From contig CP019169.1 in assembly GCA_001953215.1 (NCBI GenBank), positions 4,464,001 to 4,528,000 on the forward strand: a stretch of 64,000 nucleotides of DNA. Reading direction: 5' to 3'. Source of the DNA: Betaproteobacteria bacterium GR16-43. Lineage in GTDB: Bacteria > Pseudomonadota > Gammaproteobacteria > Burkholderiales > Usitatibacteraceae. The notes beneath the pieces are model-generated. The model ran no database searches. It was not told the DNA's origin and saw nothing but the letters and a program-made list of their open reading frames with translations. Positions 17,997-31,950 of this stretch are shown here, piece after piece; the stretch's first letter is position 1; each line of letters begins with the position of its first letter. A program made the position numbers and the translations under genes.

Positions 17997-20033
17997 CTAC
18001 ATCTTCTCCAGCGATTCGGCGGGAACCCAGTCGTCCGGCAGCGTCGCGCCCGAGATCTCGGCGATGCGCGCGAGGTAGCGCAACGCGAGCACGTCGCCCG
18101 GACGGTGCTCGAGGATCGCGTGGAAGGCCTCGCGTGCGCCCTCCCAGTCGCGTTGCGCGAAGGCCGCGTTGCCCTGCACGGTGAGCGTGCAGACCCGGGC
18201 ATCGTCGTCGAACGTGTAGACGTCCACCGGCTCGCTCTTGCCCTTCACGATCACGCTCGACACCGGGCGCAACGCCGCGCGGTCCGTGAGCGCCGCCGCG
18301 GTGGAACCGCTCACGAGGATCCGCGTGCCAAACGCCTTGTTCGCGCCCTCCAGCCGCGACGCGAGGTTCACGCCATCGCCCAGCGCGCTGTAGTACCACT
18401 GCTCCTCGGAGCCGAGGTTGCCGACGATCACTTCGCAGGTATGGATGCCGATGCGCATGCTGATCAACGGGAGACCCTGCTCGGCAAGGTCCTTGCGCAG
18501 CAACTCCATGCCGGCCTGCATCTCTCGCGCCGCATTGCACGCGTTTGCGGCGTGGTTCGCGTCTTCGACCGGCGCACCCCAGATCGCCATCAGGCCGTCA
18601 CCTGCGAACTGGATGAAAGTGCCGCGGTGTTTCTTGGCGATCGCGGTGGTGAGCGTGAAATGTTGCTTCAGCACGCGGACGACGACATCGGGGCCGTGCT
18701 TCTCGCTGATGCTCGTGAAGCCCGCGAGGTCGCTGAAGAACACCGTGACGATGCGGCGCTCGCCGCCGAACGTGAGCCGCCCCGGCTGCGCCAGCAAGTG
18801 GTCCACGACTTCGGGCGCCACATAGCGCTCGAACGCGCGCTTGATCTCCGAACGGCGCTGCCGCTCGCCGAGGTACCCGATGGCGCCGTAGACGAAGTAC
18901 GAAGCGGCGATCGCCGCGAGGATGCCCATGCCCGGCAGCCAGCGCGAATGCGTCGAGAAGCTCCAGTAGGCGGGACCGATGACGAGGAAGGCGATGGCGA
19001 GCGCGAGCACCGCGCTCAGGATCGGTCGCCAGCGCCGCATCAGCAGCGAAGAGAGCACGGTCACGAGCGCAAGCACGCCCAACTGGACCGGCATGGGCAG
19101 CGGCTTCACGGCGCGGCCCGTGATCGCGCTCTCGAGGATCTGCGCGTGCAGCTCGACGCCCGGCGTCACGAGGCCCGTGACCGACGTGAACGGCGTGGCG
19201 AATGTGTCCTGCGTGCCCATTTCCGCGCTGAGCGATGCCGTGAGCCGCAGGCCCACGAGGACGATCTGGTCCTGGAAGTGTCCCTTGGGCAGGTGCGTCT
19301 CGGGGGAGAGCGCCTGGTAGTAGGAGACATACGGATAGGCCCCGTCTTCTCTCGGCAACGCATAGCGGATCAGCTTGCCGGTCTGGTCGTCCGGCTCGGC
19401 GAGCAGGCCCGGGCGCACGACGTTCGCGCGGCGGACGATCTCGCGCCACAACACGTCGTTGCCCTCGGGAAGGTTGCGCACGATCGTGTCGCGGTCGGGT
19501 GACACGTTGGCCAGGCCCACGCCGGCGCCGGAGGCGAGCAGCACCGGCGTGGGATCGGTGCGCGTCCACTGGCGGAAGTACGCGCTCTCCTGGAACGTCG
19601 AGCTCGCGACCACGACCACATTGCCCGCCTCGGCGATCGCCTGCGCGAAGGCCCGGTCATCCGCCGGATCGTTGGACGGTTCCGCGAACAGCATGTCGAA
19701 GACGATCACCATCGCGCCCGCTTCGTTCAGGGCCTTGACCAGCTTCGCGTGCGTGCTGCGCGGCCAGGGGAACTGGCGGCCGACCTCGGCGAGCGAGGCA
19801 TCGTCGATCCCGATCAGCGTGATCGGCAGTTGCTGCGGCCGCGCGGAAGTGACCGTGAGCTCGTCGAAGCCCTTGCGCTCCATCGCCCGGCCCCATTCGG
19901 TGAGCGCAAGGCCGCCGAACAACGCGAAGATGCCGGCGGCCACCGTGGCCGTCACCCTCCACGGCAGCGGCGCGGCCCGCTCTCCCGACGGCAAACGCAG
20001 GAACGCGATGCCCCGCCCGAGCGCTCGCCGCAT
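17997..20033 (-). CDS. CHASE2-domain class III adenylate/guanylate cyclase
   Basis: 678 residues. TM1 at about residues 28-47; an extracytoplasmic CHASE2 domain (residues ~50-335, LIGIDDASLAEVGRQFPWPR and FDMLFAEPS); three TMs (~340-420); then a class III cyclase domain with metal aspartates in FFSDLAGFTS and FAGDGLMAIWG and the ALGDGVNLASRLEG motif; and a ~60-residue tail resembling a TPR pair. The purine-specifying lysine of adenylate cyclases, three residues before GD, is Gln here (IQFAGD), and the partner position is Ser (YYSALGD). ATP versus GTP specificity is therefore uncertain. Last gene of the five-gene GWWWNP operon; its ATG is 5 bases after the FecR-barrel stop. Confidence 0.9.
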   Translation of the reverse strand: MRRALGRGIAFLRLPSGERAAPLPWRVTATVAAGIFALFGGLALTEWGRAMERKGFDELTVTSARPQQLPITLIGIDDASLAEVGRQFPWPRSTHAKLVKALNEAGAMVIVFDMLFAEPSNDPADDRAFAQAIAEAGNVVVVASSTFQESAYFRQWTRTDPTPVLLASGAGVGLANVSPDRDTIVRNLPEGNDVLWREIVRRANVVRPGLLAEPDDQTGKLIRYALPREDGAYPYVSYYQALSPETHLPKGHFQDQIVLVGLRLTASLSAEMGTQDTFATPFTSVTGLVTPGVELHAQILESAITGRAVKPLPMPVQLGVLALVTVLSSLLMRRWRPILSAVLALAIAFLVIGPAYWSFSTHSRWLPGMGILAAIAASYFVYGAIGYLGERQRRSEIKRAFERYVAPEVVDHLLAQPGRLTFGGERRIVTVFFSDLAGFTSISEKHGPDVVVRVLKQHFTLTTAIAKKHRGTFIQFAGDGLMAIWGAPVEDANHAANACNAAREMQAGMELLRKDLAEQGLPLISMRIGIHTCEVIVGNLGSEEQWYYSALGDGVNLASRLEGANKAFGTRILVSGSTAAALTDRAALRPVSSVIVKGKSEPVDVYTFDDDARVCTLTVQGNAAFAQRDWEGAREAFHAILEHRPGDVLALRYLARIAEISGATLPDDWVPAESLEKM

Positions 20034-20038
20034 GCGGG

Positions 20039-23000
20039 TCAGAATCTCCAGCTGGCCACCGCTCCGAACACGTCCGACTCGCGCTTCTTCAGGAGGTTGA
20101 AGCCGTAGACCTCCACGGCCCAGCGCTTGTCGCGGGACTCCAGGAAGACGTTGAAGCGCGCGTCCCAGCCCATCGGCACCGGCACCGCGTTCGCTTCATC
20201 GGAGAAACGCTCGCTGCGCCAGGCGGCTTGCACGGTCACGAACGCATGCGCACCGGGCGCCCAGGTGACGCCGAGGTCCGCATGGTGGCGCGGCAGCCAC
20301 GGGATCTTGCGGCCGGGGAAGATCGGATCGGTGTTCTCGCTGTCCGTGTACGTGTAGTGCGCGCGCGCGGCAAAGCCCCGCCCGAGGATGCGCTCGTACC
20401 CCACGTGCGTGCGTTTCGCGATGCCCTCCGCGTAGACCGGCGTGTCCTCCAGCTCGTCGCCGCGGCCCGGGGGCGTGAGCACGCGATTGCGCAGGCGGTC
20501 GAGGTTGGTGATGTCGGTGCCCGTGTTGAGGATGCCGTCCAGGGGCGAGACGAGGTTCTTCACGTGCGCTTCCTGGTAGTGCGCCGACGCGAAGTCGTCC
20601 TGCGAGATCGTCCACTCCCATTGCGCGCGGCACTGGCGCAACGTGCCGCCTGCGAACACGAGCTGGTCTTCGAGCGGCACGCCCGCGATCGCCACCGGCA
20701 TCAGCGTGTCGGGCGCGATCGGGCGCACCCAGCGGCGGCATGCGGCGCGTACTGTCTGGCTGTCCACCGGCTTCCACGCGAATCCACCCATCGGATCGGT
20801 GCCACGCACTTCGTAGCTTTCGTAGAAGTTCGTCGCGCCCTGCGGCTGCACCACGTGGATGTCGCGCGTCTTCGTGTAGTCGCGCCAGCCGAGGCCGAGG
20901 TCCGCCCGGAAGGCGCCGCTGCCGAAACGGCCCACGCCATAGAGAGACCGCATGCGGTCCTGGTCGTCCTGGTCGAGCGATTCCTTCGCGATGGCAGCAC
21001 CCGTGAAATGCAGGCCCACATCCCGCACGAGCGTCTTCGGCGTCTCGAGCTTCGAATACTCCGCGCCCCAGGTGAGCTCCACGCCCTCGCGCATCTTCCA
21101 CGTCTGGCGCAAGGCGGTGTCGCGGCCCTCGGGCTTCGTGTTGAACGCGGAACTGCGCTCGAGCGCCTGGCTCGGGAGGAACACCGAGGCCAGCGTGTCG
21201 TAGTCGGAATCCTGCTTGCTGGTACCCGCCTTCAGCCACCAGGCGACGTTGGAGTTGGGCGAATACCTCGCCCCGACGTCGAGGCGGCTCGCGTAGCCGT
21301 CGATCTGCCCGAACTCGCCCGTGACGCCGCGCTTGCCGAGGTCAACATCGGCGTCCAGTCGCGTCGCATACAGGAAGAGCGAGAGCTCGCTCGTGGGCTT
21401 CGCGCCGAGGGCCACGGTGAAGGTCTTGGCGGTCGCCTCGAAATCGGTGTTGCCCGGCTCGATGCGCGTCGCGATGCCCTCGGCGAAATACGCGAACGGA
21501 ACGGACGTCGTGGTCGAAAGGCCGTTCACGGTGGCGACCGGCTCCACCAGCGAGACATCGTCGCTGCGGTTGTAGCGCACGGATGCCGTCGCGTGATTGC
21601 CCGGCGTGGGCACCAGCGCCTGGAAGCGGTTCGAAGCGCCGAACGCGAGCGGGTCCGTGAGAAAGCCCTGCATCAGCTCGGAGCGGCGGTCGAACGCGCC
21701 CGGATAGCGATCGGCGAGGAAGAGGTGGCTGGCACCCCAGAACGGCTGGTAGGAGTCCTGCGCCGCGGCGCGCGCCCACGACTCGAGGCCCATGAACGCG
21801 AGCGCCGAGCCCACGTTGGCCACGCCCTTCTGGTTGTCGGCGATCGCGTCGAACGACTTCAGGTATTTCATGCGTGCGAGCGCTTCCCGCGCTTCGGCGG
21901 CCCCGGCAGCGGGCTGGATCTCGTCGAGGCGGATCTCGGAAGCGAGGATGTGCGGCAACGGATCGTTGGGATCGGATTCGGTCGCGCGGCGCAGTTCCTC
22001 CAGCGCGGGCCCGGTGCGCTCGGCCGCGTAGTGCGCCGCCGCGAGGTAGATGTGCGCGCGCGAGAAGCGAGGTTCGATGAGCGTGGCCTTCAACAGCGCT
22101 TCGGTCGCGGCATCGAGGTTGCCCGAGCGCAGCTCGAGGATGCCGAGGCCGGTCAACGCGACATAGTTGTCGGGTTCGATCGCGAGCGCGCGGCCGAAAC
22201 TCGCGCGGGCTTCGGCGAGCGCGCCCGCGAGAGTCGCGACGGTACCGCCTTCCGACAGCGCCGTGACCCGGGACGCGTCGAGTTCGATCGACTTCGCGAT
22301 CAGCGAACGGGCGCGCCGAAGGTTGCCGCGCTCGCCTTCGACCGTGCCCAGGCCGAGCCAGCCGCGTGCGTCGCCTGCAGCGAGGTCGATCGCGCGCTGG
22401 TACGCCGCCATCGACTCGGACGCGAGGCCTTCGAATCGCGCCGCATCGCCGAGGGCCAGCAGGAGTTCCACCGAATCCGGTCCGACCCGTGCGGCCTGCC
22501 GCGCCAGCGAGAGGGCCCGCGGCCCATCTCCGGCGAGCAACGCGAGGCGCGAGAGTCCCGCGAGGAACCGGGGATCCGCGGGGTAGCGCGAGTTCCCTTC
22601 GTCCAGGGCGCGCTCGGCGAGCACCAGCTCGCCGCGGTACGCCTCGAAATCGGCGAGCATCAGGAAGGTCTCGGGCGTGCGCTGGGCAGAAGCGGCGTCC
22701 GCCTTCACGCGCGCATACGCGGCCGGCAAGTCGAGCCCTTTCGTGGGTCCGTAGCGATCCGGATCCAACGTCACGGACGAGACCCACTGGATACGATCGC
22801 GCGAGACCACGATCTGCAGCTTCACCGGCGCCTTGCCGCGCTCCACTACGGCTTGCTCACCGCGGCGGACGTTCACCGAACCCAGCTCGTTGGAGAAATC
22901 CACTTCGCCGCTGAACACCGACAGCGTCGAGCGCCCGTCGCCGTCAACGGCGATCTCCCAGTCCGTACCCCGGATCGCCGCCACCGCCGTCGGCGTCTCC

Positions 23001-23383
23001 ACGCGAAGGTTCTGCGGCGCGGTCTTCGATTGCATCCACGAACGGCCCGCATTGAGGTTCACCGTCGTCTTCGCGTCGGGGCCTTTCCCCGCTTCCTTGA
23101 TCTGCAAGAGGCTGTTGGGCGCGAGGCGAAGCTGCGTGCGGTCCGCGAAGAGGATCGCCATGCGCGAGAGGTCGAGCGTGCGCACGTAGTTGGTCGGGAA
23201 GAGGCCCTGCTTCACCTTCGCCGCGTTCCACGTGCTCTGCGGTGCCTCGCGGAATTCACCCTTGCCGTCGACGCTCACGATCTCCGCGGCCGGGGCCTGC
23301 GCGAAGGCGGCACCCGGTGCGACGGCGAGCGCGAGGACTGCGAGGACTGCGAGGACTGCGAGGAGGGAGCGGATGCGGCCCAT
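20039..23383 (-). CDS. FecR-TPR-outer-membrane beta-barrel fusion protein
   Basis: 1114 residues. Signal peptide with a VLAVLAVLA run, then a FecR domain (residues ~30-170: VRTLDLSRMAILFADRTQLR, ETPTAVAAIRGTDWEIAVDG, SVFSGEV), a TPR array (~230-540; LGDAARFEGLASESMAAYQR, ALAIEPDNYVALTGLG) and a C-terminal ~480-residue region of alternating strands ending in a final phenylalanine (AVASWRF), the usual signal of a BAM-assembled beta-barrel. It should be an outer-membrane protein with a periplasmic FecR/TPR part. It lies between three exported cassette proteins and the CHASE2 cyclase, with 5-base gaps on both sides, suggesting one pathway. The substrate is unknown. Confidence 0.88.
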   Translation of the reverse strand: MGRIRSLLAVLAVLAVLALAVAPGAAFAQAPAAEIVSVDGKGEFREAPQSTWNAAKVKQGLFPTNYVRTLDLSRMAILFADRTQLRLAPNSLLQIKEAGKGPDAKTTVNLNAGRSWMQSKTAPQNLRVETPTAVAAIRGTDWEIAVDGDGRSTLSVFSGEVDFSNELGSVNVRRGEQAVVERGKAPVKLQIVVSRDRIQWVSSVTLDPDRYGPTKGLDLPAAYARVKADAASAQRTPETFLMLADFEAYRGELVLAERALDEGNSRYPADPRFLAGLSRLALLAGDGPRALSLARQAARVGPDSVELLLALGDAARFEGLASESMAAYQRAIDLAAGDARGWLGLGTVEGERGNLRRARSLIAKSIELDASRVTALSEGGTVATLAGALAEARASFGRALAIEPDNYVALTGLGILELRSGNLDAATEALLKATLIEPRFSRAHIYLAAAHYAAERTGPALEELRRATESDPNDPLPHILASEIRLDEIQPAAGAAEAREALARMKYLKSFDAIADNQKGVANVGSALAFMGLESWARAAAQDSYQPFWGASHLFLADRYPGAFDRRSELMQGFLTDPLAFGASNRFQALVPTPGNHATASVRYNRSDDVSLVEPVATVNGLSTTTSVPFAYFAEGIATRIEPGNTDFEATAKTFTVALGAKPTSELSLFLYATRLDADVDLGKRGVTGEFGQIDGYASRLDVGARYSPNSNVAWWLKAGTSKQDSDYDTLASVFLPSQALERSSAFNTKPEGRDTALRQTWKMREGVELTWGAEYSKLETPKTLVRDVGLHFTGAAIAKESLDQDDQDRMRSLYGVGRFGSGAFRADLGLGWRDYTKTRDIHVVQPQGATNFYESYEVRGTDPMGGFAWKPVDSQTVRAACRRWVRPIAPDTLMPVAIAGVPLEDQLVFAGGTLRQCRAQWEWTISQDDFASAHYQEAHVKNLVSPLDGILNTGTDITNLDRLRNRVLTPPGRGDELEDTPVYAEGIAKRTHVGYERILGRGFAARAHYTYTDSENTDPIFPGRKIPWLPRHHADLGVTWAPGAHAFVTVQAAWRSERFSDEANAVPVPMGWDARFNVFLESRDKRWAVEVYGFNLLKKRESDVFGAVASWRF
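23331..23364 (-). repeat. 9-base tandem repeat in a signal peptide
   Basis: Three complete copies and most of a fourth of the 9-base unit GCGAGGACT (plus strand) lie inside the signal peptide of the FecR-barrel protein, where they code for repeats of Leu-Ala-Val. Because the unit is a multiple of three, gain or loss of copies would change the length of the hydrophobic core by three residues without a frameshift. Confidence 0.85.
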
Positions 23384-23388
23384 GGCGA

Positions 23389-25368
23389 TCAGTACCGTTG
23401 GCGAACGAGGTTGGTCGTGCGGCCGTTGGGCAGCGTCAGCGTCGCCGTCGTCGCGCTGGTGAACGTGAACGTCATCGGTGCCACGTTGTCGTTGATGCGC
23501 GTGGGCGGCTTGTACGCGCCGGTGAGCGACTGCCCGTTGGCGAAGAGCCACCAGTTGCCCACATAGCGCTGCACGTCGGGCACCGGAACGCTCGTGAGGT
23601 ACCAGACGGGGTTGCCGTTGTCGTCGTACATGTAGCCCGCGATGTCGGCCCAACCGTTCTGCCATTCCAGGAAGAAGCCGCGGCCGCTCTCGTTCGGGTT
23701 CCACCACCAGCCGCTCTCGGGCTGGTTCAGGCGCGGCGGCGCGATGAGCCCGTCCGGCACGATATTCATGCGTTCGATCGGGACGGCACCGCCCGGCCAG
23801 ACCATCGTGCCGTGCGAAGCGTCCGAGAACGCGAGCGTGATCGCGCCCACGGTCTGCGCCGGGTTGTTGGGGCGGTACGTGCCGCCGAGCGTCTGCCCGC
23901 CGGTGACGCGCAGGAGGTCGCCCGCGAAGAGCGACCCATCGAGCGAAACGTTGCCGGCCGCGATCAGCCAGTGCGAACGCCCCGCATCGTCGTACAGGAA
24001 CGCGGCATAGAAGATGTGGTTGCCCTGCACCTCGACCGAATAGCCGCGGCCGCCCTCCGCCGGGTTCCACCACCATCCGGTCTGCGGCGGCTGCGGCCTG
24101 CACTCGAGCGAACCCGGCACGGCGACCACGTTGCGGTTCACTCCGTTGTTGATCATCGACTGCGCGCTCGAGCCATAGCCCACGTAGAACGTGGCGCCCG
24201 CGATGTTGACCGTCGCGATGCCGTTGATCACGGCGACCGATTGCCCCTGCGAGCCCAGCACGCCGCTCACGAAGGCCTGCAGGCCCGAGACACTGACCGC
24301 CTGGAGCTTCCCGGCGGCGTTGAGCTGCGCGAGGACGCACGCCACGTTGGTGTCGGCCTTGCCGCCGTCGGCCCGCTTCGCGTAACCCAGCGGCGGAAGC
24401 AGCGTGTCGCCGCTCTTGAGCAGCGCGGGCAGCACGAGCGTCTGCGGGGCCACGGCGAACGTGTACACGCTGCCGCTGGAACCGACGTCCTGCGGGCGGT
24501 ACTTGATGTCGGCGTTGATGGTGGAGACCGTCGGCCCGATGCCGCCCGTCACGACCATCGGGAAGATCGGCGTCTCGGCCTTGATGGTGATCCCGGTATT
24601 GGACTCATAGCGGGCCGAGTTGTAGCTGCCCGGCAAGCCGGCGTTCGGCTTCAGGTCGACGACCGCCTGGAAGCTGGCGCCCGCGAAGTACTCCTGGCCG
24701 GCCACGAAGGTGCCCGCGGGCACGGTGAACGTCTGCACGTTGGGCGAAGGCGTCACGTCGCGGCCCTGGACCAGCCGGCCGACGCCCTCGACGCCGATCA
24801 CCATCACCCCGTTCACGTTCTGCCCGTACTCCGCGAACGGATCGGTCGTGAGGGTGAGCGGCCGGGCCGGATCGACCACGTACTTCCCGTTGGCCCAGAC
24901 CCCACCGCTGAGGATCAGCCGCGGCCGCACCGGATACTTGTCGCCGGCGAGGTTCACCGCCACCGTCTGGCCGTTGACGACCACCGTGTACGTCCCGTTG
25001 GGGAACTTGGAGTCGAGGTCGGCCTTGTTGGGCGAGCCCCAGTCGTTGCCGTTGACGCCGAGGCGCCACGCGGCGTCGCCGGTGTTGTAGACCAGCTTGC
25101 CGTTGTTGAAGAACGAGCCGATCGCCGCGAGGTTGTACGGCCCCGAGGTCGTGGGCATCGGAATGCCCGCGATGTTCGTGCCTTCGACGTTGACGGCGAA
25201 GCCGTAGGGACCGCCGTAGAGCGGCCCCAGGGGCTGGGGATTCACGACGACATCCGTCGCTGAAGTCTGCGAATACTCGGTGGTCTTGCGAACCGTCACG
25301 TATTCGACGGCGGCGAGGACTTCGAGCGGGAAGGCGAGTGCGAGCGCCAGTGCGAATGCTTTTTTCAT
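23389..25368 (-). CDS. Exported GWWWNP-cassette protein, third of three
   Basis: 659 residues with a signal peptide (ALALALAFPLEVLAAV). The N-terminal ~280 residues are unique: beta-rich, NGKYVVDPARPLTLTTDPFA, a central NGTYTVVVNGQTVAVNLAGD strand, no recognised domain. The last ~370 residues are the shared cassette: a linker domain (YRPQDVGSSG, VACVLAQLNAAGKLQ, SQGQSVAVINGIA, FYVGYGSS) followed by two Trp-rich repeats opening with TGWWWNPAEGGRGYS and SGWWWNPNESGRGFFLEW. The cassette ends in PNGRTTNLVRQRY. Very similar at the DNA level to the same part of the neighbours at 25387 and 27074. Role unknown; surface display or secretion is inferred from context. Confidence 0.85.
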   Translation of the reverse strand: MKKAFALALALAFPLEVLAAVEYVTVRKTTEYSQTSATDVVVNPQPLGPLYGGPYGFAVNVEGTNIAGIPMPTTSGPYNLAAIGSFFNNGKLVYNTGDAAWRLGVNGNDWGSPNKADLDSKFPNGTYTVVVNGQTVAVNLAGDKYPVRPRLILSGGVWANGKYVVDPARPLTLTTDPFAEYGQNVNGVMVIGVEGVGRLVQGRDVTPSPNVQTFTVPAGTFVAGQEYFAGASFQAVVDLKPNAGLPGSYNSARYESNTGITIKAETPIFPMVVTGGIGPTVSTINADIKYRPQDVGSSGSVYTFAVAPQTLVLPALLKSGDTLLPPLGYAKRADGGKADTNVACVLAQLNAAGKLQAVSVSGLQAFVSGVLGSQGQSVAVINGIATVNIAGATFYVGYGSSAQSMINNGVNRNVVAVPGSLECRPQPPQTGWWWNPAEGGRGYSVEVQGNHIFYAAFLYDDAGRSHWLIAAGNVSLDGSLFAGDLLRVTGGQTLGGTYRPNNPAQTVGAITLAFSDASHGTMVWPGGAVPIERMNIVPDGLIAPPRLNQPESGWWWNPNESGRGFFLEWQNGWADIAGYMYDDNGNPVWYLTSVPVPDVQRYVGNWWLFANGQSLTGAYKPPTRINDNVAPMTFTFTSATTATLTLPNGRTTNLVRQRY

Positions 25369-25386
25369 TTTTATTGAATTTCTCTC

Positions 25387-27051
25387 TCAGAACTTCTGAC
25401 GTTGGAGGGAGGTCGTGCGGCCGTTGGGAAGGGTCATCGTGGCGGTGGTCGTGCTGCTGAACTGGATCGTGAACGGAGCAACGTGGTCGCTCACCTGGAT
25501 GGGCGGCTTGTACGCACCGAGCAGCGACTGGCCGTTCGCGAATTGCCACCAGTTGCTCGCGATCGAGCGCGCGTCGGGCGTGGGCACCGAGTTCAGGTAC
25601 CAGACCGCGTTGCCGCTGTCGTCGTACATGAAGCCCGCCATGTCCACCCAGCCGTTCTGCCACTCGATGAAGAATCCGCGCCCGCTCTCCTCCGGGTTCC
25701 ACCACCAGCCGCTCTCGGGGATGTTGTCCTGCGGCGGCGCGGTGAGCCCGTTGGGCACGATGTTCATGCGCTCGATGCCGATCGGCCCGCCCGGCCACAC
25801 CATCGTGCCGTGCTGCGCATCGGTGAAGGCGAGCGTGACGGATCCGACCGTCGTGGCCCCGGCGGGCGCCTTGTACGCGCCGCCCAGCGACTGGCCGCCG
25901 GCGAAGTGAAGGAGATCCCCGGTGAAGAGCGAACCGTCGATCGAGGTACTGCCCGCGGCGATGTACCAGTCGGAGCGGCCCGTGACGTCGTAGAGGTAGC
26001 CGGCCCAGAAGATGTGGTTGCCGTTCACCTCCAGCGAATAGCCGCGGCCGCCCTCCGCCGGATTCCACCACCAGCCGGTCTGCGGCGGACCCGGCTTGCA
26101 CTCGAGCGCGCCCGGCACGGTCGCGACGTTGCGGTTGAGGCCGTTGCCCAGCATCGACTGCGCGCTGGCACCGTAGCCCACATAGAACGTCGTGCCGCCG
26201 ATGGCCGTGGTCGCCACACCGTTCACCACCGCGATGGCCTGGCCTTGCGAGCCCAGCACGCCACTCACGTAGGCCTGCATGCTCGAGGCACTGACCTGCT
26301 GCAACTGGCCCGCGGTGTTCAACTGCGCGAGGACGCACGCGACCGACGTGTCTTCCTTGGCGCCGTCCGTTCGCTTCGCGTAGCCCAGCGGCGGCAGCAA
26401 GGTCTCGCCGCTCTTGAGGACCGCGGCCTTCACGATCGTCACCGGCGCCACGGCGAATGCGAAGACGCGCCCGTTCGTGCCCTGGTCCTGCGCGCGGAAC
26501 TGGATGTTGGCGTCGACCTTCGCCAGGCCGCCCTCGAAGCGCGCGGAGACGGTCATCGGAAAGGGAGGGTCGATCTTGTCCGCGGTGAACGAGCCGTTCA
26601 GCGTCACCATGCCGCCCATGTCGTCGGTCGGGATCGTCGCGCTGATCGTGCCTCGCGTCCCATCCCACGTGCCGGTGAACGGGATCACCGCGTCCCGGAT
26701 CGTCTCCGGTCGGATGACACAATTGCCGCCGTTGATGTTGTCTTCGAATTCGGCGCGCACGAAGCGGAAGTCGGCGGCGATCGGCCCGGGGACCGCGAGC
26801 TTGAGCCCGGTGATCACGAAGTCGTCCACCAGGCGATAGGGGCTGTTGCACCCGATGTATTTGGTGGTGAGCGAGTAGCTGCCGATGCAGGGATCGGCGC
26901 CCGTGCACGAGAACGTCGCCGCATTCGTGTCGGTCGCCGTGTTGCCCGAGAAACCGCCCTTGATGCGGGTCACGGTCTGCCCCGCCGCGTCCAGGGCGAG
27001 CAGGCACACGAAAGCCGTTACCAGGGTGCGGATGTGCGCATGCATCTTCAT
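25387..27051 (-). CDS. Exported GWWWNP-cassette protein, second of three
   Basis: 554 residues with a signal peptide (LVTAFVCLLALDAAGQ). The N-terminal ~170 residues form a small beta-rich domain with five cysteines (FSCTGADPCIGS, IGCNSPYR, GNCVIRPE) that may form disulfides. The C-terminal cassette matches the other two proteins: FRAQDQGTNG, VACVLAQLNTAGQLQQVS, YVGYGASAQSMLGNGLNR, TGWWWNPAEGGRGYSLE, SGWWWNPEESGRGFFIEWQN, ending PNGRTTSLQRQKF. It starts 22 bases after the RCC1 protein stop and ends 18 bases before the next gene, so it is part of the same operon. Unknown function. Confidence 0.85.
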   Translation of the reverse strand: MKMHAHIRTLVTAFVCLLALDAAGQTVTRIKGGFSGNTATDTNAATFSCTGADPCIGSYSLTTKYIGCNSPYRLVDDFVITGLKLAVPGPIAADFRFVRAEFEDNINGGNCVIRPETIRDAVIPFTGTWDGTRGTISATIPTDDMGGMVTLNGSFTADKIDPPFPMTVSARFEGGLAKVDANIQFRAQDQGTNGRVFAFAVAPVTIVKAAVLKSGETLLPPLGYAKRTDGAKEDTSVACVLAQLNTAGQLQQVSASSMQAYVSGVLGSQGQAIAVVNGVATTAIGGTTFYVGYGASAQSMLGNGLNRNVATVPGALECKPGPPQTGWWWNPAEGGRGYSLEVNGNHIFWAGYLYDVTGRSDWYIAAGSTSIDGSLFTGDLLHFAGGQSLGGAYKAPAGATTVGSVTLAFTDAQHGTMVWPGGPIGIERMNIVPNGLTAPPQDNIPESGWWWNPEESGRGFFIEWQNGWVDMAGFMYDDSGNAVWYLNSVPTPDARSIASNWWQFANGQSLLGAYKPPIQVSDHVAPFTIQFSSTTTATMTLPNGRTTSLQRQKF

Positions 27052-27073
27052 TTTTTATTGTCTCCCTTGGGAG

Positions 27074-30000
27074 CTAGTACCGCTGGCGTTGGAGTGCCGT
27101 CGTCCTTCCGTTCGGGAGCGTCATGATGGCGGTGGTGGCGCTGGTGAACTGGATCGTCACCGGCGCCACGTTGTCGTTGATGCGGGTAGGCACCTTGTAC
27201 GCCCCGGTGAGCGACTGGCCGTTGGCGTACAGCCACCAGTTGCCGGCATAGCTGCGCACGTCCGGCGCGGGGACGCTCGTGAGGTACCAGACCGGATTGC
27301 CGGCATCGTCGTACATGTAGCCCGCGATGTCGGCCCAGCCGTTCTGCCACTCCATGAAGAAGCCGCGGCCGCTCTCCAGCGGGTTCCACCACCAGCCGCT
27401 CTCGGGCTGGTTCGGACGCGGTGGCGTGTCGAGGCCGTTGGGCACGATGTTCATGCGTTCGATCGCCACGATGCCGCCGGGCCAGACCATCGTGCCGTGC
27501 GAGGCATCCGAGAACGTGAGCGAGATCGTGCCGATGGGTGCCGGCGTGTTGTTCGGGTGGTACGTGCCGCCCAGCGTCTGTCCGCCGGTGACGCGCAGGA
27601 GGTCGCCCGTGAAGAGCGAGCCGTCGAGCGAGACGTTGCCGGCCGCGATCAGCCAGTTCGAACGCCCGGCATCGTCGTACAGGAACGCGGCATAGAAAAT
27701 GTGGTTGCCCTGCACCTCGACCGAATAGCCGCGGCCGCCTTCGGCCGGATTCCACCACCATCCGGTCTGCGGCGCCTGCGGCTTGCACTCGCGCGCGCCC
27801 GGCACCGTCACCACGCTGCGGTTCGTGCCGTTGCCGATCATCGAGGTGCCGGTGCCGCCGTAGCCCACGTAGAACGTGGTGCCGCCGATGACCGCGGCCG
27901 ACGAGCCGTTGATGATGGTCACCGCCTGGCCCTGCGCGCTCAGCACGCCCGATACGTAGGCCTGCAGCGACGAAGCCGACACGCCCTGCAACTGGCCGCC
28001 GCTCACGAGTTGCGCCAGCACGCAGGCCACCGACGTGTCCTTGCGACCGTCGCGCCACTTCGCGCGGCCGACCACGAGAGGCGGCTCGCCATTCTTCGCG
28101 GCCTTCACCATGTCCTGCGGCGCGACCGCGAAGACGTAGATGTTGCTCGAGGTCCCGATGTCCTGGCCTCGGAACTGCACGTTCGCCGTGACCGCGCCGG
28201 CGGCGTTCGTCGTCACCATCAGGAAGATCGGCACCGGTTGCGGCGTGGCCGCCTTCGGCACCGCGGGATTGAGGTCGAGGAACCAGTTGTTCGCCTCGAG
28301 CGTGCCCGCGCCGTCTTCGCGCACGACGACCACCGGCGTGTAGCGCGTGACGAAGGTGCCGTCGCCGAGGCGGCCGTCGATGTTGCCGCCGAACGCGTAG
28401 ACGGTGCCGTCGTTCTTCAACGCCATCGCGCCGCCGCGGCCCGCGCTCACCATCGTGATGCCGGAGAGGCCCGGGACCATCACCGGGCGCACCTGCTCGT
28501 AGCCCTCGCCGTCGCCCACCTGCCCGTCGTAGCCCGTGCCCCAGGCCCACACATTGCCGTCGCGCGTGACCGCGTAGCTGTTCGCGCCCCCGGCGGCGAT
28601 CGACGCGATGTTCGCGAGGTCCGGCACGATGGCGGGGACCGACCGGCTGTTGTTCGTCCCGTCGCCCAGCTGGCCCGAGTAGTTGCTGCCCCAGGTGTAG
28701 ACGGTCCCGTCGGTTTTCAGGGCCACCGAGTGGTCGTAGCCCGCCGCGACGGCGCTCACGTTCGTGAGTCCCTGCACGTTCACGGGGCTCAAGCGCAGGT
28801 CCGTCGAGCCGTCGCCCAGCTGGCCCGCGCCGTTGACGCCGAAGGCCATCACGCGTCCGTCGGCGAGTGCCACGAGCGTGTGCCCGGCGCCCGCGCTGAT
28901 CGCGCGCGCATTGGCGATGCCGGCCACCCGCGTGGGCCGGAAGCGGGTTTCTTCGTCGCCCTGCCCCAGGACACCCTGGTAGTTGTAGCCCCATGACCAC
29001 ACGGTGCCGTCGTTCTTCAGCGCGATCGAGCTGAAGTAGTTGGCGCCGATGTCGGACACGCCGGTGATGTCTTCGACGGGCCCGGCCGTGGAGCGGCCAT
29101 TCAGCACGTCGCTGCCCAACTGGTGGCTGTAGTTGTTGCCCCACGCGAGGATGGTGCCGTCCGCCTTGAGTGCGAGCGAGTGTTGCCCGCCGCCCGCGAT
29201 CTTGACGATGGAAGCCACGTTCGGCACGCGCGTCGGCGTGGAGCGCAACGGCCGGAAGCCATCGCCCAACGCGCCATAGTCGTTCGAACCCCACGCGCGG
29301 ACGCGGCCGTCGGTGCCCACTGCGTATGTGTGGGAGCCGGCCGCGGAGATCGTCGCGATGCCGGAGACTCCCGGAACGCGAACCGGCACGCCGCTCCCGT
29401 CCGTCGTGCCGTTGCCGAGCTGGCCGTAGTCGTTGTTGCCCCAGGCCCAGACGCCGCCATCGGAGGTGCGGGCCACGGAGTAGAAGAAACCTCCGGCGAT
29501 CTCGGTCACGTTCGCGAGGCCGGTCACCCGCACCGCGATCGGCGAAGGATTGCGCAGCCCGTCGCCCAGTTCGCCCGAGTAACCGCTGCCCCAGGCCGCG
29601 ACCGTGCCGTCTCCCAGGAGCACGAGCGTATGCACTCCGCCCGCCGCGATCTTCATGACGCCCGCGACACCCGGCACGGGAACCGGTGTTCCGCGATTGA
29701 CGCTGAATCCATCGCCGATCTGGCCGTACTCGGACGAACCCCAGGTGAGCACGATGCCGTCGCCGCGCAGGGCCACGCTGTGCTGGGCGCCCGCGGCAAT
29801 GGCCGTGATGTTCGCGAGCGTGGTGATGCGTGCCGGGTTGTAGCGGTCCGCGGTCATCGCATCGCCGAGCTGGCCGTTGTCGCCACGGCCCCAGGCGTAC
29901 ACGGTGCCGTCACGGAGGAGTGCCAGGCTGTGGTCGCCGCCCGCCGCGATCGCCATCACGTTGGCGATGCCCGGCACCTGCGCCGGCACGAGGAGGCTGT

Positions 30001-30478
30001 CCGCGTAGCCCAGCTGGCCCTGGTAGTTGCCGCCCCAGGTCCACACCGTGCCGTCGGACTTGAGGGCCATCGAATGGATGCTGCCCGCCGAGACCGCGAG
30101 CACGCCGGTGAGTCCCGTGACGGGACCCGGCGTCGAACGATTGGTCGTGCCGCCATCGCCCAGCTGGCCCAGGTCGTTCTGGCCCCAGGCCATGACGGTG
30201 CCGTCGGAGAGCCGGGCCAGCACATGGTTGTAGCCGGCCGACACTTGCGTGGCCGTGGCGATCGAGACCACCGAGATCGGCGTGCTGCTCTGCAGCGTGC
30301 GCCCGAGGCCGAGCTGGCCGGCGGCGTCGTCGCCCCAGGCCCGGACGGTGCCGTCGGCATGGAGGGCCAGGGCATGATTGGCGCCCGAGGCAATGACCGG
30401 TGTGACGGCCTGCGCCAGGGGCGCCGCGGCCGCCAGGGCGAGCCAAACAGCTACGAGGTAAGTGCCGCGCTTCCGCAT
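27074..30478 (-). CDS. Exported 14-repeat RCC1 propeller protein with GWWWNP cassette, first of three
   Basis: 1134 residues from the ATG at 30478, which sits 10 bases after AGGAG; an ATG at 30487 is too close to that site. Signal peptide (LVAVWLALAAAAPLAQAV), then fourteen ~50-residue RCC1/ATS1-type repeats (for example DGTVWTWGGNYQGQLGY, DGTVYTWGSNYSGQLGDG), enough for two seven-bladed propellers. The C-terminal ~370 residues are the shared cassette (FRGQDIGTSSN, VACVLAQLVSGGQLQGVS, TGWWWNPAEGGRGYSVE, SGWWWNPLESGRGFFMEW), ending PNGRTTALQRQRY. Bacterial RCC1 propellers are usually extracellular binding domains. First gene of the five-gene operon. Confidence 0.9.
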   Translation of the reverse strand: MRKRGTYLVAVWLALAAAAPLAQAVTPVIASGANHALALHADGTVRAWGDDAAGQLGLGRTLQSSTPISVVSIATATQVSAGYNHVLARLSDGTVMAWGQNDLGQLGDGGTTNRSTPGPVTGLTGVLAVSAGSIHSMALKSDGTVWTWGGNYQGQLGYADSLLVPAQVPGIANVMAIAAGGDHSLALLRDGTVYAWGRGDNGQLGDAMTADRYNPARITTLANITAIAAGAQHSVALRGDGIVLTWGSSEYGQIGDGFSVNRGTPVPVPGVAGVMKIAAGGVHTLVLLGDGTVAAWGSGYSGELGDGLRNPSPIAVRVTGLANVTEIAGGFFYSVARTSDGGVWAWGNNDYGQLGNGTTDGSGVPVRVPGVSGIATISAAGSHTYAVGTDGRVRAWGSNDYGALGDGFRPLRSTPTRVPNVASIVKIAGGGQHSLALKADGTILAWGNNYSHQLGSDVLNGRSTAGPVEDITGVSDIGANYFSSIALKNDGTVWSWGYNYQGVLGQGDEETRFRPTRVAGIANARAISAGAGHTLVALADGRVMAFGVNGAGQLGDGSTDLRLSPVNVQGLTNVSAVAAGYDHSVALKTDGTVYTWGSNYSGQLGDGTNNSRSVPAIVPDLANIASIAAGGANSYAVTRDGNVWAWGTGYDGQVGDGEGYEQVRPVMVPGLSGITMVSAGRGGAMALKNDGTVYAFGGNIDGRLGDGTFVTRYTPVVVVREDGAGTLEANNWFLDLNPAVPKAATPQPVPIFLMVTTNAAGAVTANVQFRGQDIGTSSNIYVFAVAPQDMVKAAKNGEPPLVVGRAKWRDGRKDTSVACVLAQLVSGGQLQGVSASSLQAYVSGVLSAQGQAVTIINGSSAAVIGGTTFYVGYGGTGTSMIGNGTNRSVVTVPGARECKPQAPQTGWWWNPAEGGRGYSVEVQGNHIFYAAFLYDDAGRSNWLIAAGNVSLDGSLFTGDLLRVTGGQTLGGTYHPNNTPAPIGTISLTFSDASHGTMVWPGGIVAIERMNIVPNGLDTPPRPNQPESGWWWNPLESGRGFFMEWQNGWADIAGYMYDDAGNPVWYLTSVPAPDVRSYAGNWWLYANGQSLTGAYKVPTRINDNVAPVTIQFTSATTAIMTLPNGRTTALQRQRY

Positions 30479-30601: not shown

Positions 30602-31216
30602 TCAGATCTCGGCGGCGAGGCGTCCGAGATAGGCGTTGAAGGCGTCGTGGGCCTTGAGCTCCTGGAGGCTCGCGGCCTGCAGGAGCCGGCCCTTGTTCAC
30701 GAAGATGAAGCGCTCGCACACCTCGCGCAGCAGCTCCACGTGGTACGGCTCGTTCGGATGCAGGCACACGAAGACGAGCTTGCCCTCGGAACGCAGGCGG
30801 CGGAAGAAATCCAGCATGAAGCCGATGTAGCCGTCCTGCGGGTTGAACTGGGGCTCGTCGAAGAGGTGGATCGCGGGGGCCTCGCAGCGCGCGGGTTCGA
30901 GCAGGAACTCCGGCACGCGCCGCTGGAACGAGCGCACCTGGTAGCTCTGGTGGTAGTGCATCGCAAGCTGGCAGCGCTGGCGGTAGCGGACCTTGTGGAT
31001 GTCCTGCCCCATCGCCATCACGCGGCCGGAGGTCGGCGCGTTGCTGCCGGTGATCAGCTCGAAGAGCGTGGTCTTGCCCGAACCGTTGGGGCCCATCACG
31101 CCGATGATCTGCGGGGATGCGACCTCGAAATCCGCCTCGAGCGAAAACGTCGGCACGCGCGAGAAGCGTCCCCGCGTGTAGACCTTGGCCAGCTTCTCGA
31201 CGTGGAGCATCGTCAT
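30602..31216 (-). CDS. Third ABC-type ATPase, degenerate signature motif
   Basis: 204 residues, start overlapping the LivF stop as ATGA. It has a Walker A (MGPNGSGKTT), a Walker B with catalytic glutamate (AIHLFDEP) and an H-loop histidine (VFVCLHPNE). However the LSGGQ signature is absent: the region before Walker B reads FQRRVPEFLLEPARCEAP, and the D-loop SALD is replaced by QFNPQD. Such proteins pair with a full ATPase to give one active and one degenerate site. Liv transporters normally need only LivG and LivF, so a third ATPase is unexpected. It may form an alternative heterodimer or serve another role. Confidence 0.85.
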   Translation of the reverse strand: MTMLHVEKLAKVYTRGRFSRVPTFSLEADFEVASPQIIGVMGPNGSGKTTLFELITGSNAPTSGRVMAMGQDIHKVRYRQRCQLAMHYHQSYQVRSFQRRVPEFLLEPARCEAPAIHLFDEPQFNPQDGYIGFMLDFFRRLRSEGKLVFVCLHPNEPYHVELLREVCERFIFVNKGRLLQAASLQELKAHDAFNAYLGRLAAEI

Positions 31217-31950
31217 GCGGCCAGCAGCTGCCGGCGCAGCGCCCGGTCGTCGCGCAATTCCTGCGCGGGGCCCGTCCACGCGAGCGTGCCGCGGTCGAGC
31301 ACGCAGACGCGGTCGGCCACGTCGAGCGCGGTCTCCACGTTCTGCTCGACCACGAGGATGCCCACGCCCTCGTCGCGCAGCCTCCGCACGGCGCGCACCA
31401 CGTCCTGCACGATGCGCGGGGCGAGGCCCTGGCTGGGTTCGTCGAGAAGGACCAGCCCGGGGGAGCCCAGCAGCACGCGAGAGATGGCGACCATCTGCAT
31501 CTCGCCGCCGGAGAGGTTCTCGCATTCGCGGTCCATCAAATACTCCATCGCCGAGAACACCTCGAAGCATTCCTTCAGGGTCCAGGCACGGAAGCGCGTG
31601 CGCTTCACCGCGAGGTCCAGGTTGCGCCGCACGGTGAGCGTGGGAAACACGCGCCGGTCGTCGGGCACCCAGCCCACGCCGGAGCGCGCGATCTCATGGG
31701 TGTGAGACCGCGTCACGTCGCGGCCATCGAAGCGGATCGAGCCGCGGCGCGGGCGCGTGAGCCCGAGGATGGAGCGCAGGGTCGTTGTCTTGCCCGCGCC
31801 GTTCGCGCCGAGCAACGCCACCACTTCGCCCGAAGCCACCTCGAGCGAGACGCCGAAGAGCGCCTGCGTCTCGCCGTAGTAGGTGTCGATATTGGAGACT
31901 TCGAGAATTCTCCCTCCCCCTTGGGGGAGGGCCGGGGAGAGGGTATTCAT
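31213..31950 (-). CDS. LivF-type ABC transporter ATPase
   Basis: 245 residues from the ATG at 31950 (ATGA overlap with LivG). Walker A LLGANGAGKTTT, signature LSGGEMQMVAISR, Walker B LVLLDEPSQGLAP, H-loop VVEQNV: all intact and typical of LivF in branched-chain amino acid type (HAAT) transporters. The first codons (SPALPQGGGR) overlap a CCCTCCCCCTTGGGGGAGGG palindrome at 31912-31931, a repeat that has become coding. Works with LivG, LivM and, presumably, LivH and the binding protein at 37633. Confidence 0.92.
   Translation of the reverse strand: MNTLSPALPQGGGRILEVSNIDTYYGETQALFGVSLEVASGEVVALLGANGAGKTTTLRSILGLTRPRRGSIRFDGRDVTRSHTHEIARSGVGWVPDDRRVFPTLTVRRNLDLAVKRTRFRAWTLKECFEVFSAMEYLMDRECENLSGGEMQMVAISRVLLGSPGLVLLDEPSQGLAPRIVQDVVRAVRRLRDEGVGILVVEQNVETALDVADRVCVLDRGTLAWTGPAQELRDDRALRRQLLAA
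31912..31931. repeat. GC-rich palindrome inside the livF start region
   Basis: A perfect 20-base palindrome, CCCTCCCCCTTGGGGGAGGG, followed by GCCGGGGAGAGGG. It encodes part of the N-terminus of the LivF protein (residues SPALPQGGG). A related sequence at 32690-32712 encodes the end of LivM (SPKEGGG). CCCTCCCCTTGGGGAGGG-type palindromes are widespread dispersed repeats in proteobacteria. Confidence 0.6.

Follow-up and report, generated by a model that had tools for sequence, protein, structure and literature searches.

Here we describe a five-gene operon on the minus strand (positions 17997–30478) of a 64,000-nucleotide stretch of DNA, 'the window', taken from the single-contig, 4.81 Mb genome of Betaproteobacteria bacterium GR16-43 (CP019169.1), in which three genes for exported proteins are followed by those for a receptor and a nucleotide cyclase related to NsrA and CyaK of Sinorhizobium meliloti. 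What is new is that one clade of such receptors, to which that of the window belongs, is coupled to exported proteins sharing a domain that we call module A, and that most of the cyclases of this clade are without the lysine presumed to read the purine base. The explanation we prefer, whilst holding it to be evenly poised between right and wrong, is a trans-envelope receptor–cyclase of the NsrA–CyaK type with self-made exported proteins as its partners or ligands, which would probably dock through module A.

Working along the operon in the direction of transcription, we find an exported protein with RCC1 repeats (gene 1, P0001; 1134 residues, 27074..30478), two further exported proteins (gene 2, P0002; 554 residues, 25387..27051, and gene 3, P0003; 659 residues, 23389..25368), a FecR-TPR-barrel protein homologous to NsrA (gene 4, P0004; 1114 residues, 20039..23383) and a CHASE2 class III nucleotide cyclase homologous to CyaK (gene 5, P0005; 678 residues, 17997..20033). 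Successive genes are separated by 22, 18, 5 and 5 bases and all five frames lie on the minus strand, an arrangement already laid out in an earlier reading made from the sequence alone, and here confirmed. Signal peptides of the operon proteins, including that of P0001, were assigned by eye only. A scan with Escherichia coli-type consensus found no sigma-70-like promoter (0.9 expected) and three terminator-like sites (6.0 expected); operon status is therefore based on spacing and strand.

The AlphaFold model of P0004 (mean predicted local distance difference test score, pLDDT, of 91.5) consists of a FecR-type beta domain (22814..23287), a TPR superhelix (21875..22729) and a C-terminal beta-barrel of the TonB-dependent-receptor type (20042..21601), in which DSSP assigns 23 strand segments. 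Pfam matches the same three parts (FecR, TPR and TonB-receptor barrel), and the best Foldseek matches are all TonB-dependent receptors (FemA, PqqU, BauA, FhuA and FecA; E-values from 4e-16), whilst Pfam detects no Plug domain even with E-values of up to 1 allowed. The barrel fold is thus plain in the model, and with high confidence gene 4 is predicted to encode a TonB-receptor-type barrel without a plug, set behind FecR and TPR parts: the fold is common to FecA and FhuA, but the missing plug match and the N-terminally fused FecR and TPR parts are not. The arrangement also departs from FecIRA-type signalling in that the FecR domain of P0004 appears to be exported (again judging from a signal peptide assigned by eye), and a Pfam search of the five operon proteins found neither a sigma factor nor a cytoplasmic anti-sigma domain.

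A tblastn search of plasmids with P0004 returned 86 records, 67 from Sinorhizobium, nine from Ensifer and five from Rhizobium among them; against a single gene of S. meliloti pSymB, P0004 aligns over most of its length with 27–31% identity among the matches listed. In strain ml47 the homologue is a 1197-residue 'FecR domain-containing protein' whose gene shares one base with that annotated as cyaK; we take it to be NsrA, since the 2018 paper on NsrA reportedly places nsrA before cyaK. By phmmer, the FecR, TPR and barrel parts match this homologue with E-values of 6e-37, 3e-26 and 1e-9, respectively, and P0005 is 34% identical to CyaK (E 8e-89). Homologous to NsrA–CyaK across FecR, TPR, barrel, CHASE2 and cyclase parts, and with the receptor directly before the cyclase in both, genes 4 and 5 are, on this sequence evidence, of the NsrA–CyaK kind, and the second half of the operon is thus a known kind. 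NsrA is an outer-membrane receptor and CyaK its cognate cyclase for one signal, both being needed for the protein signal uL2 to elicit cyclic AMP-dependent expression (PMC7529298 and PMC13001267).

Differences from the S. meliloti pair are equally apparent. No exported partner genes of the kind of genes 1–3 are annotated within the 13 kb surrounding nsrA–cyaK, and the C-terminal region shared by genes 1–3 (below) finds no match in a search of the Sinorhizobium plasmid records, the S. meliloti chromosomes lying outside it. The signal there is a plant or ribosomal protein, unlike the self-made partners that we propose, and CyaK has the purine-reading lysine where P0005 has glutamine. The sequence-only reading knew of no described system with this set, a statement that fails for the barrel and cyclase, which are of the NsrA–CyaK kind and have a published relative in the Campylobacterota. 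There, as far as the available text describes it, a CHASE2 adenylate cyclase adjoins a FecR-domain outer-membrane protein, as in our operon, but the TPR protein is a separate gene, a phosphodiesterase gene is present and cassette proteins go unmentioned in that text (PMC9239204; the likeness is by description). In the part of PMC5192318 available, the BiofilmReg operon of Burkholderia likewise sets a FecR protein beside a CHASE2 sensor; this is a LysM-FecR protein with a histidine kinase in place of a cyclase, and that part does not mention a barrel. PMC5498481 lists a FecR-domain protein and a TPR protein among Clr targets.

Turning to the exported proteins, the products of genes 1–3 align with one another over their last ~375–400 residues at 67–73% identity (BLAST, E about 1e-180 or less), whilst their remaining pieces share no similarity (all E >2); the earlier description of unrelated N-terminal halves ending in a common region therefore stands. 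That region had been taken for one cassette of ~370 residues. Shared by all three it is, but it really consists of module A (~150–165 residues) followed by two GW repeats (~110 residues each, ~230 together), themselves 32–39% identical to each other; we rejected the cassette as a single unit, since its two parts, module A and the GW pair, are not distributed alike. In gene 1 an RCC1 passenger (28244..30406; 14 Pfam stretches, making two propellers) precedes module A (27773..28243, this member having no Pfam match) and the GW pair (27077..27772, likewise without a Pfam match). Gene 2 begins with a cysteine-containing domain (about 26581–26991) followed by module A (26086–26580) and the GW pair (25390–26085), and gene 3 with a different domain (about 24583–25311), again followed by module A (24088–24582) and the GW pair (23392–24087). 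Pfam finds no family for the gene 2 product and only a sub-threshold one for that of gene 3.

The GW repeats are widespread. Queried with the whole cassette, the host genome gives 47 matches, all except the three full ones mainly through the GW part; module A, in turn, has at least three matches there, all of them genes 1–3 (13 of 21 first-look candidates scored). The 20 stretches of the host genome that we read (G000, L249–L268) hold another 27 proteins with GW pairs or single repeats, the last repeat lying 10 residues or fewer from the C-terminal end in 21 of the 27. Ten of these proteins were scanned: the passengers of nine could be assigned to known families (peptidases of the M23, S8, matrixin and, in three cases, trypsin-like types, a sugar dehydrogenase, sortilin/BNR and DUF1800), and the tenth matched none. 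The consensus reads LWWNPxESGWG..., and the repeats, mostly paired, form the C-terminal end of numerous exported enzymes and propellers encoded here. Across 300 genomes of the order GW repeats are present in 23, 15 of which are without the barrel, and none of 29 GW rows matched any Pfam family.

Module A is similarly novel by Pfam, three of 23 rows giving one borderline match each, to three different families (best E 0.004); in profile searches against solved structures it finds no match and the GW repeat a single chance-level one. Foldseek with the cassette model gave no meaningful overall match (best rows with a template-modelling score of about 0.1), only weak, partial lipocalin-like ones (nitrophorin 7, E 0.07). 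In one protein, L179, module A is followed by a weak match to Lipocalin_4 (E 7e-5).

These distributions bear on the proposal, made in the sequence-only reading, that the cassette is a C-terminal sorting or secretion tag and the barrel its export or anchoring device. A common cassette on unrelated passengers beside a barrel with a TPR part does invite it, the order of TPR then barrel is also that of PgaA and BcsC, and some genomes hold few full receptors and many scattered module-A proteins: one against 24 in Parachitinimonas caeni (L177/G334), with none of the 24 within 10 kb either side of the receptor, and two against 16 in G330. Against this, module A is C-terminal in just 18 of 43 proteins, being internal in 14 and N-terminal or nearly so in 11 (matches covering fewer than 60 profile positions excluded), which contradicts a strict C-terminal tag such as would be expected of a system of the type IX secretion kind. 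The GW part is carried by proteases and by other proteins encoded well away from the barrel, and in most of its genomes in the order there is no barrel at all. Moreover, NsrA, which is the closest relative to have been studied, acts as a receptor, and the barrel is of the TonB-receptor type. We regard a sorting device as quite unlikely.

The link between module A and the receptor, by contrast with that tag, has gained from wider sampling. Among the 28 genomes of the host family the barrel is found in 10 and the cassette in 12, with cassette matches in all 10 barrel genomes versus two of the 18 without. Cassette genes lie directly upstream of barrel and cyclase in five (G000, G023, G024, G004 and G027); they are on contigs other than that of the barrel in G005, G002, G006 and G001, where the barrel contigs of G002 and G001 measure only 3–3.5 kb and the G006 one starts within the barrel gene. 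Beyond the family, a receptor-alignment scan of named genomes, by their titles mostly Betaproteobacteria, supplied the best 80 of 123 confirmed stretches (same records, namely L094/L123, L095/L124, L025/L122, L096/L134 and L097/L173, counted once), and module-A genes lie within the locus in 13 of these, two being the same records as G004 and G027.

In a FastTree phylogeny of 83 receptors (leaving out L197, a short one of the 80) that of the window falls in a group of 21 rows, clade A, with support of 100, recovered again in a quick IQ-TREE analysis of 51 rows without NsrA. We searched 50 of the 80 barrel genomes in full for module A, scoring a limited number of first-look candidates in each, and found it in 18 of 18 clade-A genomes versus 11 of 32 with other receptors (p 2e-6, a value that, like the others given for module A, ignores genome kinship and is inflated by it); the 11 divide into six of eight with the cassette-B clade (below), one of eight with an RTX-type (repeats-in-toxin) set and four of 16 Acidovorax-type and others. 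Excluding the genomes used to build the profile leaves seven of seven versus nine of 30 (p 0.001). Each of the six among the 32 that we checked further (G338, G349, G359, G361, G362 and G365, the last holding L195) has at least two receptor matches; four Acidovorax genomes with module A (G359, G361, G362 and G365) have two full-length receptors each. In the 300-genome sample, searched with a like limit on candidates, module A occurs in 10, the receptor in 13 (G041, G161 and G298 matching FecR-TPR only) and both in seven, one of them (G219) by a remnant; module A is present in three of the 287 receptor-negative genomes (p 5e-9). The G219 remnant (G219:C15:62483-62674), short and interrupted by two stops, follows a receptor–cyclase pair at a distance of 33 bases and suggests a lost partner gene.

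A gathering of these genes by chance or drift, with no functional link, could be argued from four clade-A loci (L125, L134, L177 and L193) with no module-A gene in the stretch examined; gaps of 5–22 bases, adjacency in five genomes of the family and at further clade-A loci, and the 18 of 18 genome-wide co-occurrence make it very unlikely. That module A travels with one receptor branch suggests instead that the receptor senses or displays the cell's own proteins.

Saying this, a number of points weigh against our preferred explanation. Clade A was picked on the tree when the neighbours were already known, the module-A profile was built in part from 11 of the 18 clade-A genomes, kinship inflates the p-values as stated, and the match in L193 is partial (E 3e-12). 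G166, G197 and G252 carry module-A matches (best E 1e-17 to 8e-9) and no full receptor. The 300 genomes yield 36 module-A matches, among which 12 intact genes and the one remnant adjoin a receptor, and all 12 are from the host family, leaving no intact module-A gene beside a receptor outside it in that sample, although named loci of other families do show the pairing; a cassette usually found without a FecR-barrel neighbour, which the earlier reading had set down as telling against itself, is therefore what we see for the GW part and, in part, for module A. The homology of P0004 to NsrA is weakest in the barrel, and the NsrA branch is very long in the FastTree phylogeny (as are a few other rows). 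The structure model of the cassette is only moderate (pLDDT 72.8). Fourteen of the 80 barrels have room for a CHASE2 gene within 2 kb and none there, five of them in clade A (L127, L129, L130, L177 and L193); among the 17 loci carrying either module A or a second cassette (B, below), CHASE2 is within that distance at 10; and three clade-A cyclases (L132, L152 and L170) keep the lysine considered next.

The receptor–cyclase pairing itself is common, CHASE2 lying within 2 kb of the barrel at 54 of the 80 loci by tblastn in six frames, by which domain positions were checked; beside the 14 just mentioned, 12 are without room. A codon-trained gene caller, used for the named loci, gave 52, 15 and 13; 45 of the 52 called neighbours are on the barrel's strand and 42 of those downstream (median distance 22). 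In P0005 the CHASE2 domain (19059..19919) and the class III cyclase domain (18231..18749) are both assigned by Pfam. The protein keeps Asp435 and Asp479, which we take to be the metal-binding pair, and Asn556 and Arg560, presumably the transition-state residues; all four are invariant in 51 of 51 relatives. At the position where CyaK has the lysine presumed to read adenine and so confer ATP specificity, P0005 has Gln475 (codon CAG, 18609..18611). This lysine is lost (to Q, R, S or T) in seven of the 10 readable clade-A cyclases of named loci as well as in P0005, and is kept in all 43 outside clade A, CyaK included (p 3e-7 for seven of nine, leaving out L132, versus the others); further kin have Q (G023, G024 and G002) or R (G020) at the site. 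In the mycobacterial Rv0386, glutamine here can reportedly go with use of both ATP and GTP. Given Gln475, we class the pair as a variant of the NsrA–CyaK kind; a change in the nucleotide made by the gene 5 cyclase may have occurred. Searches of the open-licence literature turned up neither a receptor coupled to module-A proteins nor the change at the purine site in that clade, nor anything on a FecR domain with adenylate cyclase and filamentous hemagglutinin, on RCC1 repeats with FecR, or on RCC1 with outer membrane, adenylate cyclase and Betaproteobacteria.

Other barrels keep different company. At five loci (L133, L141, L175, L182 and L196) the FecR-TPR-barrel is accompanied by exported proteins ending in a second C-terminal cassette, cassette B, with a core of about 220 residues and passengers that again differ (sortilin/BNR, Ig/fn3, ice-binding-like). 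At L196 two exported proteins, the barrel, the cyclase and a module-A protein follow one another, separated by 96, 11, 5 and -4 bases. A two-partner-secretion (TPS)-type exoprotein (L125:7353-12287, in clade A) and RTX-type proteins (L154:4643-9799 and L183:6489-9809) also stand beside barrels, and beside yet others the upstream gene resembles, by eye, a housekeeping gene. Such variety accords with a shared regulon without contact, whereby the receptor would, like NsrA, sense a ligand from outside and the adhesin- or propeller-like exported proteins would be no more than co-expressed output of a common life style, module A being a general extracytoplasmic domain: barrels adjoin TPS (L125), RTX (L154 and L183) and sortilin/BNR or ice-binding-like proteins with the other cassette (L133 and L175), and module A is also found on other exported proteins, some of them in genomes without a full receptor. 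Co-expression does not, however, require module A to track one receptor clade genome-wide, even from distant genes, as it does, and we consider the shared regulon a possible but doubtful account.

Under the receptor–cyclase explanation with self-made partners, the products of genes 1–3, coming from the same cell, would be sensed by or held on the gene 4 receptor, with module A the likely docking domain and the differing N-terminal domains, RCC1 propellers among them, as the variable parts exposed to the exterior. The outer-membrane barrel protein, with its FecR and TPR parts in the periplasm, would then signal, whether directly or by means of a partner, to the extracytoplasmic CHASE2 domain of gene 5, the inner-membrane class III cyclase would produce cyclic nucleotide, and occupancy or ligand capture would so be reported inward. 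We infer the binding of module A to the receptor, the direction of the signal and the surface location. Two ideas of the sequence-only reading thereby gain support, namely that the exported proteins are linked to the FecR-TPR-barrel, as adjacency in five family genomes and co-occurrence with one receptor clade indicate, and that the cyclase would report inside the cell, its output being our supposition.

As for the surroundings, a branched-chain-amino-acid/urea-type ATP-binding cassette (ABC) transporter cluster lies upstream on the same strand, and the operon might be transcribed by read-through from this Liv/Urt-type cluster; a same-strand reading frame at 30602–31570, which partially matches an ABC ATPase, stops 123 bases short of gene 1. 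Downstream is a convergent MarC-type gene. The host genome encodes five further CHASE2 proteins (L018, L019, L020, L022 and L023); in the stretches around them (L086–L090) the FecR domain of the window matches L088 only, and weakly (E 3.5e-7).

To our knowledge, the route by which a receptor in the outer membrane passes its signal to a cyclase in the inner membrane is largely open, and in our literature searches NsrA was the sole receptor built in this way whose signal is known. Should module A or cassette B serve for docking, receptor and candidate partner genes stand together at 17 or more of the 80 loci examined, and at 10 of those CHASE2 is no further than 2 kb away. The lost lysine, for its part, bears on which nucleotide the cyclase makes. 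More broadly, and only as a tentative suggestion that we would not expect to hold in full, the receptor clades may each be matched to their own self-made exported proteins through a clade-specific docking module, the module-A/receptor pair serving as a sensor of self-ligand or surface display, with a cyclase that has moved beyond strict use of ATP and whose output may be cyclic GMP or mixed.

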